Shown here in pieces: positions 1 to 3,146 of a stretch of 64,000 bases of DNA. This stretch comes from Comamonas terrigena NBRC 13299. GTDB lineage: Bacteria; Pseudomonadota; Gammaproteobacteria; Burkholderiales; Burkholderiaceae_C. The DNA lies in assembly GCF_006740045.1 (NCBI RefSeq), contig NZ_AP019749.1, positions 2,313,001 through 2,377,000 on the forward strand, given 5' to 3'. Below the pieces are notes generated by a model. It was not told the origin of the DNA, searched no databases, and saw nothing but the letters and a program-made list of their open reading frames with translations. Both the position numbers and the translations under genes were made by a program. Positions within the stretch are counted from its first letter, which is position 1; each line of letters begins with the position of its first letter.

Positions 1-1343
1 CCCGAAGCCTTGAGCGAGTCGAACAGCGCTTTTTCCGCCTTGTCCCAGACTTCGTCCGAGCCAATCCGCGCTTCCGGACGGGTTGCGACCTTGTAGATGA
101 TGTCGGTGAAACCGAAGTCGGCGTAGACCTTTTGCAGCAGCTGCGTGAAGTCAAGCACTTCCTTCTGGATCTGGTCTTCGGTACAGAAGATGTGGCCATC
201 GTCCTGGGTGAAGCCGCGCACGCGCATGATGCCGTGCAGACCGCCCGTGGGTTCGTTGCGGTGGCACTGACCGAATTCACCGTAGCGCAGCGGCAGGTCG
301 CGGTAGCTCTTGATGCCTTGCTTGAAGATCAGGATATGGCCCGGGCAGTTCATGGGCTTCAGCGCGTAGTCGCGCTTTTCCGACTCCGTGATGAACATGT
401 TGTCGCGGTACTTGTCCCAGTGACCGGTTTTTTCCCACAGGGTCTTGTCCAGAATCTGGGGGGCCTTCACTTCTTCGTAGCCGTTTTCACGGTAGACGCG
501 GCGCATGTACTGCTCCACCTCCTGCCACACGCGCCAGCCCTTGGGGTGCCAGAACACGGTGCCGGGCGAGCATTCGTCGATGTGGAACAGGTCCAGCTCG
601 CGACCCAGGCGACGGTGGTCGCGCTTCTCGGCTTCTTCGATGCGGGTGATGTAGGCCTGCAGATCCTTCTTGTCCGCCCAGGCCGTGCCATACACGCGCT
701 GCAGCTGCTCGTTCTTGGCGTCGCCGCGCCAGTAGGCGCCAGCCAGCTTGGTCAGCTTGAAGACCTTCAGGAAGCGGGTATTGGGCACGTGGGGGCCACG
801 GCACATGTCGACATATTCCTGGTGGTAGTACAGGCCCATGGCGGTTTCATTGGGCATGTCTTCGACCAGGCGCAGCTTGTAGTCTTCGCCGCGTTCCTGG
901 AACACCTTGATGACTTCGGCGCGCGGAGTCATCTTCTTGACGACGTCGTAGTCCTGCGCAATCAGCTCCTTCATGCGAGCTTCGATGGCGGCCATGTCTT
1001 CGGGCGTGAACGGGCGCTCGTAGGAGATGTCGTAGTAAAAGCCCTCCTCGATCACCGGACCGATCACCATCTTGGCCGTGGGATACAGCTGCTTGACGGC
1101 GTGACCGACCAAGTGGGCGGTGGAGTGGCGAATGATCTCCACGCCTTCGTCGTCCTTGGGCGTGATGATCTGCAGCTTGGCGTCTTCGCTGATCAGATCG
1201 CAGGCGTCGACCAGACGGCCGTTGACGCGGCCGGCCACCGTGTTCTTGGCCAGACCGGCGCCGATGGACTGGGCCACCTGCATGACGGTGACCGGGCCGT
1301 CGAATTCACGTTGCGAACCGTCGGGAAGCGTAATTTTCAGCAT
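1..1343 (-). CDS. thrS: Threonyl-tRNA synthetase (5' part; gene runs off the left edge)
   Basis: Charges tRNA-Thr with threonine in the cytoplasm. The visible 447 codons begin [16 protein letters not shown] (TGS domain), followed by the second additional/editing domain with [11 protein letters not shown] (about residues 72-82) and the start of the class II catalytic core, with MNCPGH and [12 protein letters not shown]. The family is about 635-640 residues, so roughly 190 C-terminal residues lie outside the window. The ATG at 1343 gives the normal family N-terminus. A leader peptide and a terminator precede it, so expression is probably set by attenuation. The identity is very secure. Confidence 0.97.
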
Positions 1344-1390: not shown

Positions 1391-1427
1391 TTTGAAAAGC
1401 AAAAAGCGCGGAACAGGTCCGCGCTTT
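1391..1427 (-). terminator. Attenuator terminator in the thrS leader
   Basis: On the minus strand AAAGCGCGGA (1427-1418) pairs perfectly with TCCGCGCTTT (1412-1403) across a 5-nt loop, followed by a T-rich stretch (TTTTTGCTTTTC). It ends about 60 nt before the thrS ATG and follows the Thr-rich leader peptide, so it would stop transcription before thrS. This placement makes it an attenuator, since no other gene lies between it and the aceA terminator. Confidence 0.85.
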
Positions 1428-1510
1428 GGATAAGAGGGAGAAAAGACTCCGGGCAGGCGCGAACTCGCAGCCTCAACGGCTGCACAACCTTTGCAAGGTA
1501 CTCGTTCGCG
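1403..1510 (-). promoter_or_regulatory. thrS attenuator with mutually exclusive pairings
   Basis: Four segments can be read on the minus strand. Segment 1 is CGCGAACG (1510-1503), inside the leader peptide codons. Segment 2 is GTTCGCGCC (1464-1456). Segment 3 is GCGCGGA (1424-1418) and segment 4 is TCCGCGC (1412-1406). 1 pairs with 2, 2 can pair with 3 (seven pairs, one of them G-U), and 3 pairs with 4 as the terminator. Between 1 and 2 lies a GCAGCC/GGCTGC hairpin over the leader stop codon. A ribosome stalled on the Thr codons would cover segment 1, free 2 to pair with 3 and prevent termination. The pairings are seen; the mechanism is inferred from known amino-acid attenuators. Confidence 0.75.
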
Positions 1511-1517
1511 GTGTCAT
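1473..1517 (-). CDS. Thr-rich leader peptide of thrS (14 aa)
   Basis: An ATG at 1517 opens MTPRTSTLQRLCSR followed by TGA (1475-1473). Codons 2, 5 and 7 are ACA, ACG and ACC, giving three Thr in the first seven positions. A purine-rich AGAAAGG lies about ten bases upstream of the ATG. The peptide precedes alternative hairpins and an intrinsic terminator, which is the layout of ribosome-stalling leader peptides of amino-acid operons. It would sense shortage of charged tRNA-Thr. It has no homologue I can name; the call rests on composition and position. Confidence 0.72.
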   Translation of the reverse strand: MTPRTSTLQRLCSR

Positions 1518-1579
1518 AACCAGACTGCCTTTCTCGCTCTTGTAAATGGATACTGGCAACCATTTTAACGCCGTATGCA

Positions 1580-1718: not shown

Positions 1719-3050
1719 TCAGTGGAACTGCTCTTCTTCGGTGGAACCGGTCAGGGCCTTCACGCTGGAAGAGCCGCCCTGGATCACGGTGGTCACGTCA
1801 TCGAAGTAACCCGCGCCCACTTCCTGCTGGTGCGACACAAAGGTGTAGCCCAGTTCGCGTGCCGCGAATTCGGGTTCCTGCACCATTTCCACGTAGTGCT
1901 TCATGCCTTCGCCGCGTGCATAGGCGTGGGCAAACTTGAAGGTGTTGTACCAGTTGCTGTGGATGCCGGCCAGGGTGATGAACTGGAACTTGTAGCCCAG
2001 TGCAGACAGGTCTTCCTGGAAGGACGCGATCTGGCTGTCGTTGAGGTTCTTCTTCCAGTTGAACGAAGGCGAGCAGTTGTAGCTCAGCAGCTTGCCGGGG
2101 CAGGCTGCGTGCACGGCCTGTGCGAATTCACGGGCAAAGCCGATGTCGGGCACGCCGGTTTCGCACCACACCAGATCGGCGTAGGGAGCGTAGGCCACGC
2201 CGCGGCTGATGGATTGCTCCAGGCCGTTCTTGACACGGTAGAAGCCTTCCTGGGTGCGCTCGCCGGTCAGGAAAGGCTGATCGTTGGCGTCGTGGTTGCT
2301 GGTGATCAGGTTGGCTGCCTCGGCGTCGGTACGGGCCAGCACGATGGTGGGCACGCCCATCACGTCCGCAGCAAAGCGGGCGGAAATCAGCTTTTCGCAG
2401 GCTTCACGGGTGGGCACCAGCACCTTGCCGCCCATGTGGCCGCACTTCTTCACGGCTGCCAGCTGGTCTTCAAAGTGCACGCCAGCAGCGCCGGCCTGGA
2501 TCATGTTCTTCATCAGCTCGAAAGCGTTCAGCACGCCGCCGAAACCGGCTTCCGCATCGGCCACGATGGGCAGGAAGTAGTCGATGAACTCCTTGTCGCC
2601 GGGATTCACACCCTTGCCCCACTGGATTTCGTCAGCGCGCTTGAAGGTGTTGTTGATGCGGCGCACCATGGTGGGCACCGAGTCATAGGCGTACAGCGAC
2701 TGGTCGGGGTACATGGTTTCGGACGTGTTGCCGTCGGCAGCGACTTGCCAACCCGACAGGTACACGGCTTCCAGACCGGCCTTGGCTTGCTGCATGGCCT
2801 GGCCGGCAGAGATGGCGCCGAAAGCGTTCACGTAGCCCTTCTTGGAGCTGCCGTTGATCTTCTCCCACAGCACTTCGGCGCCACGCTGGGCCAGGGTGTA
2901 CTCGGGCTGCAGGCTGCCACGCAGGCGCACCACGTCAGCCGCGGAGTAACCGCGCTTGACGCCCTTCCAGCGGGGGTTGGTGGCCCAGTCTTTTTCCAGG
3001 GCGGCGATTTGCTGTTCGCGGCTCAGTTGGGTGTTCAGCGCTTTGGTCAT
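1719..3050 (-). CDS. aceA: Isocitrate lyase
   Basis: Cleaves isocitrate to succinate and glyoxylate, the first step of the glyoxylate bypass needed for growth on acetate and fatty acids. The 443-residue product has the family length and the catalytic signature VKKCGHMGGKVLVPT near residue 200, with NPRWKGVKRGYSAADVVRLRG at the N-terminus. The start is the ATG at 3050 (MTKALNTQLSREQ), preceded by GGAGATCACG on the coding strand; an in-frame longer reading to 3137 lacks family support. It is monocistronic between its terminator and a long AT-rich upstream region with a palindromic operator. No malate synthase is in the window. Confidence 0.97.
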   Translation of the reverse strand: MTKALNTQLSREQQIAALEKDWATNPRWKGVKRGYSAADVVRLRGSLQPEYTLAQRGAEVLWEKINGSSKKGYVNAFGAISAGQAMQQAKAGLEAVYLSGWQVAADGNTSETMYPDQSLYAYDSVPTMVRRINNTFKRADEIQWGKGVNPGDKEFIDYFLPIVADAEAGFGGVLNAFELMKNMIQAGAAGVHFEDQLAAVKKCGHMGGKVLVPTREACEKLISARFAADVMGVPTIVLARTDAEAANLITSNHDANDQPFLTGERTQEGFYRVKNGLEQSISRGVAYAPYADLVWCETGVPDIGFAREFAQAVHAACPGKLLSYNCSPSFNWKKNLNDSQIASFQEDLSALGYKFQFITLAGIHSNWYNTFKFAHAYARGEGMKHYVEMVQEPEFAARELGYTFVSHQQEVGAGYFDDVTTVIQGGSSSVKALTGSTEEEQFH

Positions 3051-3146
3051 CGTGATCTCCTTGAAAGGTAGTGAAACTGGTTTGCCGTGGTGTGCGGCCT
3101 TGGAGACAACTGTAGGCAAAGCGACGGCTCCCAACAATCACTTCTA

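Follow-up and report, generated by a model that had tools for sequence, protein, structure and literature searches.

A candidate leader-peptide attenuator in front of the thrS gene of Comamonas terrigena and related bacteria

The window, as the whole stretch of DNA analysed here is called, comprises 64,000 nucleotides (nt) of the Comamonas terrigena NBRC 13299 genome (contig NZ_AP019749.1, positions 2,313,001 to 2,377,000). One of its ends lies inside thrS, the gene for threonyl-tRNA synthetase (ThrRS). The first 447 of the 639 codons that the gene has in the genome are present (1..1343, minus strand, with the start ATG at 1343) before it runs off the window, and this part scores 466 bits against the NCBIfam model thrS TIGR00418, whose cut-off is 384. 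An isocitrate lyase gene is found at 1719-3137, upstream of the thrS leader. The leader, which occurs only once in its own genome, contains a small open reading frame (ORF) with three threonine (Thr) codons, followed by alternative stems and a terminator. As judged from its sequence, it is very probably a leader-peptide (ribosome-mediated) transcription attenuator of thrS.

All features of the leader lie on the minus strand and are numbered by window position. The leader peptide ORF, MTPRTSTLQRLCSR* (1473..1517), has 14 codons and reads ATG ACA CCG CGA ACG AGT ACC TTG CAA AGG TTG TGC AGC CGT TGA, with Thr at codons 2, 5 and 7. The same 14-codon ORF, with three Thr codons in its first seven, had been described in an earlier sequence-only reading of this DNA. 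It is preceded by a Shine-Dalgarno region, CAAGAGCGAGAAAGGCA (1526..1542), which has AAAGG at 1532-1528 and is strongly conserved in alignments of 63 and 104 leaders. An 18-mer, GGTTATGACACCGCGAAC (1504..1521), runs from the start codon to region 1 and is fixed according to the conservation counts given below. Region 1, CGCGAAC (1504..1510), lies within codons 3-5, and the local fold pairs it with region 2. Region 2, GTTCGCGC (1457..1464), was identified from pairing and alignment and can be the partner of either region 1 or region 3. Between regions 1 and 2, the fold of the 1:2 segment has a small hairpin, GCAGCC/GGCUGC, around the leader stop codon (1466..1484); similar arms are seen in many of the 63 aligned leaders, by eye only. 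Region 3, AAAGCGCGGAC (1417..1427), is the 5' arm of the terminator, as indicated by a consensus scan, pairing and covariation. Region 4, TTCCGCGCTTT (1403..1413), is its 3' arm, forms ten pairs and is followed by a T-rich tail. The terminator as a whole (1427-1403), which the consensus scanner also recovered, ends 59 nt 5' of the thrS start codon at 1343, in keeping with the distance of about 60 nt stated previously. The local folds of the window have energies of -24.4 (1:2 segment), -14.5 (2:3 segment) and -15.2 kcal/mol (3:4), and the fold of 1340-1560 is better than that of 200 out of 200 dinucleotide shuffles (z -3.1).

The conservation of the leader was examined in related genomes at the level of the genus (53 searched), family (150), order (120) and class (114). 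The loci were anchored on thrS, to keep their selection independent of the leader, and upstream DNA was read at 36 loci of the genus, 109 of the family, 100 of the order and 26 of the class. Five loci (L013, L044, L065, L087 and L115) were dropped because the thrS start was missing or unreadable, two (L310 and L379) were oriented by hand, and one (L031) is a copy of the window. Order loci without the leader were kept in the counts of the core and of Thr-run upstream ORFs (uORFs). The 18-mer core is present exactly in 36 of the 36 genus loci. With up to two mismatches it is found in 90 of the 109 family loci (80 of them exact), 7 of the 100 order loci and none of the 26 class loci. At one mismatch or fewer it occurs in 305 of 397 family genomes, representing 107 of 126 genera; a single match was seen in the reversed control. 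A scan of named genomes for the exact core returned at least 119 stretches, and in 116 of the 119 listed thrS lies 123-306 nt downstream, the remaining three ending too early. Genera among the matches listed include Comamonas, Variovorax, Acidovorax, Rhodoferax, Massilia and Janthinobacterium, as well as Burkholderia, Paraburkholderia, Cupriavidus, Undibacterium and Collimonas. The leader is thus kept in most sampled family members, and a looser form is found in part of the order. The start codon, the Thr codons, region 2 and the terminator recur before thrS in relatives, and chance is therefore excluded.

Removal of identical ORFs from 133 leaders left 119 distinct ones, 10 to 27 codons in length. 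The start codon is ATG in 118 of these, and AAAGG is positioned 10 or 11 nt 5' of it in 107. This conservation of start codon and ribosome-binding site suggests that the leader ORF is translatable. Separately, the Shine-Dalgarno region (consensus CAAGrGCGAGAAAGGCA, 1526-1542 on the minus strand of the window) seems to be conserved across genera beyond the need of a ribosome-binding site.

The Thr codons are conserved in the reading frame. After codon 5, 262 of 1097 in-frame codons (23.9%) encode Thr, compared with 17 of 978 (1.7%) and 28 of 978 (2.9%) in the other two frames and with 83 (standard deviation 8.5) in nucleotide shuffles. Codon 6 is a Thr codon in 87 of the 119 leaders (ACG 41, ACA 23, ACC 19 and ACT 4); all four Thr codons are used, so it is the amino acid and not the letters that is selected at this position. 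A uORF containing three or more Thr within seven codons precedes thrS at 32 of 36 loci in the genus, 78 of 109 in the family, 25 of 100 in the order and 1 of 26 in the class, the shuffle expectations being 1.3, 3.1, 2.5 and 0.7, respectively; two of the 25 order uORFs (L091 and L117) fall inside tRNA genes. The ATG and the Thr codons, whose conservation in relatives the sequence-only reading had proposed as a check, have thus both been retained. The most Thr-rich leader noticed, MTPRTTTTTTSTSTEV, is from a Leptothrix metagenome-assembled genome (L197). Some order leaders are of a different build, for example MSFRTTTTGTLNQG, MFRTSTTTQS, MFKRTTTTRISR and MAVRTTTTHP, and a tRNA gene is located upstream of the order leaders in L371, L382 and L388. 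L061, from another family of the class, encodes a ThrRS similar to that of the window (76%); its thrS is preceded by an unrelated Thr leader, MSTTTAQR, and by what may be a terminator.

The alternative pairings were compared with shuffled sequences and by covariation. A permissive scanner, run with no chance control, places a terminator after the ORF in 119 of 119 leaders. Relative to dinucleotide shuffles of the same leaders, the mean z is -1.37 for 1:2 and -1.47 for 2:3, and a single region 2 can serve both pairings in 107 leaders, compared to 65.7 in shuffles. In 99 of these 107, region 2 starts between -12 and +17 nt from the leader stop codon. That region 2 tracks the stop codon was not shown in this set, in which its distance to the start codon is tighter. 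Covariation was assessed on 104 aligned leaders, which remained after seven order leaders had been left out of the 119 (leaving 112) and a similarity filter had been applied. The 3:4 stem is paired in 89.5% of the cells of this alignment; 49 cells are changed on both sides (20.8 in shuffles) and 16 further pair types occur (12.4 in shuffles). The 2:3 stem is paired in 88.2% of cells and has 27 compensatory cells compared to 18.1 in shuffles, a value that none of 500 shuffles reached. All slid versions of 2:3 are lower in paired cells (51.2% at most) and in covariation score. In a hand-anchored count on 82 of the 119 leaders, two flanking pairs exceeded shuffles and two did not. In an alignment of 63 of the 104 leaders the values are higher: 2:3 is paired in 90.9% of cells, with 11 compensatory cells and three pairs changed on both sides (1.2 in shuffles), and 1:2 in 91.2%. 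These 63 leaders had been chosen by hand after the pairing was seen, which flattered the figures, and the 104-leader alignment is the one relied upon.

Several of these results weigh against an attenuator. The covariation of 2:3 is weaker on all 104 leaders than on the hand-picked 63; in the larger set this stem has no excess in pairs or pair types, and 22 of its 27 compensatory cells fall at one pair. The 1:2 stem, paired in 85.0% of cells, lacks covariation over the same 104 leaders, and its three outer pairs fail to form in 50, 36 and 12, respectively, of about 102 leaders; its 5' side is almost invariant. Finally, the window leader, with three Thr, is among the Thr-poorer ones. Of the mutually exclusive stems put forward previously, 3:4 is therefore clearly supported by covariation and 2:3 modestly, and 1:2 is not. 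On balance, the conservation, the Thr-coding constraint and the covariation of 3:4 and 2:3 favor the original interpretation as ribosome-stalling attenuation of thrS.

The anatomy of the leader, its conservation, its Thr-coding constraint, its pairing beyond shuffles and its linkage to thrS suggest the following sequence of events, in which ribosomes are proposed to translate the ORF and to stall, and transcription is proposed to terminate or to read through. RNA polymerase would transcribe the leader, and a ribosome would begin to translate the small ORF. If the supply of threonyl-tRNA is low, this ribosome would wait at the early Thr codons (2 and 5, and in relatives also 6-8), covering region 1. 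The 2:3 stem would then form before region 4 is made, the terminator would be blocked and thrS would be transcribed. When threonyl-tRNA is plentiful, the ribosome would reach the stop codon near region 2, or would leave and allow 1:2 to form. Region 3 would then be free for region 4 and transcription would end. Expression of thrS is thus probably raised when charged threonine tRNA is scarce.

This scheme was modeled with a ribosome footprint that blocks 17 nt 5' and 13 nt 3' of the start of the A site, on a transcript ending before region 4. Over the 119 leaders, 2:3 has a mean probability of 0.14 in the absence of a ribosome, 0.09 with codon 12 in the A site and 0.08 with the stop codon there; for codons 2 to 7 in the A site the values are 0.49, 0.44, 0.40, 0.41, 0.38 and 0.37, respectively. 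With the A site on codon 6, the probability exceeds the ribosome-free value in 108 of the 119 leaders and the value at the stop codon in 105. According to the model, the Thr codons thus sit where a waiting ribosome favors antitermination. For the window leader, only codons 2 and 3 raise 2:3 (0.66 and 0.63); codon 5 gives 0.13, and codon 6 onward gives 0. The near-invariant ACA at codon 2 may therefore matter most in that leader. Minimum-energy folds of the full-length leader contain the terminator in every ribosome state tried, and the switch must therefore be kinetic.

The thrS gene of Escherichia coli is controlled by a translational operator, a tRNA-like RNA that is bound by ThrRS. E. coli ThrRS is named as self-regulating in PMC2965389. 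A similar operator, in which the leader RNA would mimic tRNA-Thr and ThrRS would repress itself, would act on the same gene and could account for the high degree of structure in the leader (z -3.1 relative to shuffles). Such an operator is nevertheless improbable here. An anticodon-like hairpin with a CGTA loop near thrS is not above chance in genus (0 of 36), family (1 of 109) or order (2 of 100) loci, the first two counts being below shuffles (2.0 and 4.1), whereas it is found in 11 of 26 class loci compared to 1.2 in shuffles, an example being GTGGTC[CCTCGTATC]GACCAC in L075. The contrast with the E. coli operator drawn by the sequence-only reading is borne out by this distribution. Furthermore, conservation of the Thr codons is at the level of the amino acid, something that mimicry by the RNA would not require, and the same leader stands before two ThrRS clades (L002 and L014, described below). 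A tRNA-like operator was dropped as a candidate for the window leader, in which the CGU loop was not found. Rfam covariance models gave nothing at gathering score in the window, and ARAGORN found no tRNA there. Up to an E value of 10, four weak Rfam matches are located around the leader, none of them to a T-box or an amino-acid leader, and in seven related loci Rfam matched tRNAs only.

A different kind of switch would operate on translation or RNA access: the Shine-Dalgarno region would pair with the linker that separates region 2 from region 3, switching translation of the leader or of thrS, and the terminator would be incidental. The minimum-energy fold of the window indeed pairs GAGCGAGAAAGG with CUUUUCUCCCUC, and over 117 leaders this pairing is slightly above shuffles (mean z -0.60, with 20 leaders at p of 0.05 or less). 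The signal is weak and patchy, however, and the terminator is conserved with covariation and, in the window, lies 59 nt from the start of thrS, so that this explanation too is given little credence. A further possibility, that a plain terminator is read through into thrS and the ORF is there by chance, is the least probable of all. In other families thrS often directly follows a tRNA gene and a terminator, a leader not being recognised there by eye, and some family members retain the terminator without the leader. The upstream isocitrate lyase gene, however, has a terminator-like site of its own (1611-1586, consensus scan), and the start codon and Thr codons of the leader are conserved.

Within the attenuator reading, a further property of the leader is the fixation of its first codons. 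Codons 2-5 of the 119 leaders are ACA in 117, CCG in 119, CGA in 113, and ACT in 94 or ACG in 25. CGA is a rare codon, representing 87 of 2990 arginine (Arg) codons in the thrS genes of the sampled loci. Codons 1-5, the rare CGA included, are thus fixed at the level of letters. Pairing of 1:2 was ruled out as the full cause of this fixation, because region 1 remains unchanged when region 2 changes. RNAalifold finds a candidate GGU/ACC hairpin of three base pairs at the start codon, the pairs of which are nearly invariant, with one change in 63 rows.

The CGA-Thr dicodon extends beyond the core. CGAAC[TG] is found in 30 of the 93 order loci without the core, compared to 9.8 in shuffles, and the remaining CGN-ACN combinations show no excess in the same loci (44 compared to 48.9). 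Among order Thr-run uORFs, which were found without using CGA, 16 of 23 contain CGA-AC[TG], and three of these 16 have the MTPRT start. Of 26 ORFs of other build, five were left out (L326, a copy of L109, and L100, L110, L347 and L383, unlike the rest). In the 21 that remained, downstream pairing around CGAAC hardly exceeds chance (mean z -0.29), and GTTCG occurs in four compared to 1.0 expected. The dicodon might be an ancient element of the order's thrS leaders, retained where the stems and the surrounding sequence changed; common descent accounts for part of this retention. It is suggested, tentatively, that besides Thr counting the leader could be a codon-level sensor made of rare CGA (Arg) directly 5' of ACU or ACG (Thr). 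Slow CGA, perhaps by way of its inosine-adenine pair when in the P site, would sensitise decoding of the next Thr codon to threonyl-tRNA. Alternatively, CGA could time the ribosome relative to RNA polymerase, and a trans-acting RNA or protein may read the fixed start region. The fixed start region and its dicodon pose a testable question, namely what sets the sensitivity of attenuators.

The coding sequence behind the leader has a history of its own. In a quick tree, the window thrS belongs to a clade apart from the order's usual gene (branch support 100, length 0.33); 27 family and genus rows group together (support 90). Relatives of this clade elsewhere are L061 and L090. The leader before both ThrRS clades, which are about 70-75% identical to each other, is the same. 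The loci concerned are the window, L002, L003, L014 and L061, and both types occur within one genus. The loci L002 and L014, of the same genus, are 95% identical in the 300 nt 5' of the leader and 86% in the leader, and their ThrRS amino acid sequences are 75% identical; when L003 is aligned with L014, identity drops after roughly the first 15 codons of thrS. It looks as if the thrS coding sequence has been swapped behind the leader, although an old thrS duplication with losses may also have led to this arrangement. One leader before two ThrRS clades argues against sensing by ThrRS and fits sensing of charged tRNA. Close relatives with one leader and two different ThrRS genes are therefore a natural test of whether control resides in the leader rather than the enzyme.

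Leader-peptide attenuators control the trp, his, thr, leu and phe operons and E. coli pheST. The thrS leader resembles the trp-type attenuators in having a short ORF with many codons for the amino acid concerned, the potential for alternative 1:2, 2:3 and 3:4 pairings and a terminator before the first gene. It differs from them in its target, thrS in Burkholderiales, in the letter-level fixation of its first five codons and in the lack of a match to any Rfam family. The trp and his attenuators are discussed in PMC1183508. In PMC8079986, a thrL leader is predicted before thrS in Streptomyces lividans and attenuation is proposed. Like the window leader, thrL is a short Thr-codon ORF in front of thrS; it differs in being MKRVRPFLETTPGFVPAR, with two Thr, on a leaderless transcript for which, according to the authors, termination is not clear (PMC8079986), and by eye it is unlike the MTPRT leaders. 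Control of thrS by a Thr leader is therefore not new as a general idea, having been predicted in an actinobacterium. The uORFC-8-2 motif before cysS in Rhodobacterales, as presented in PMC8632094, is a uORF with cognate codons and features of ribosome-mediated attenuation. It is similar to the thrS leader in combining a proteobacterial synthetase gene with a cognate-codon uORF, and differs in that the amino acid is cysteine and the bacteria are alphaproteobacteria. In the literature searched, no description of a leader attenuator of thrS was found for betaproteobacteria, and the sequence-only reading had known of none; few subscription papers were covered, and this is weak evidence of novelty. 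A textbook gene for a protein-bound operator apparently has a ribosome-read attenuator here. The leader is a real, widely conserved candidate attenuator of a familiar type, at a gene famed for another mechanism, and it spans genera as far apart as Comamonas, Variovorax, Burkholderia, Cupriavidus and Massilia.

The gene order in the genome is thrS, infC, rpmI, rplT, pheS and pheT, and we infer that these genes form a single operon with thrS as the first gene. The genes that follow thrS in this row encode IF3, two ribosomal proteins and the subunits of PheRS. No good -35 element was found for the window leader, and the consensus scan gave no promoter match. A -10-like TAAAAT at 1562..1567 (minus strand) is probably part of a leader promoter; the same hexamer is found 30-85 nt 5' of the leader ATG in 47 of the 119 leaders, compared to 0.5 in shuffles, and in 24 of these 47 sites it starts 48-51 nt 5' of the ATG.

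In L260, L266 and L314, all from the family, the terminator before thrS is retained by eye and the leader ORF was not recognised. Many class and order loci (among L063-L089, L090-L117 and L317-L390) have, directly upstream of thrS, a tRNA gene that by eye encodes tRNA-Val (anticodon GAC) and that was confirmed as a tRNA in four loci; thrS may be co-transcribed with the tRNA there. In L397, infC lies right after thrS and has an apparent unusual start codon, by eye (ATA GCT ACT GAA), resembling the non-standard start codon of E. coli infC.
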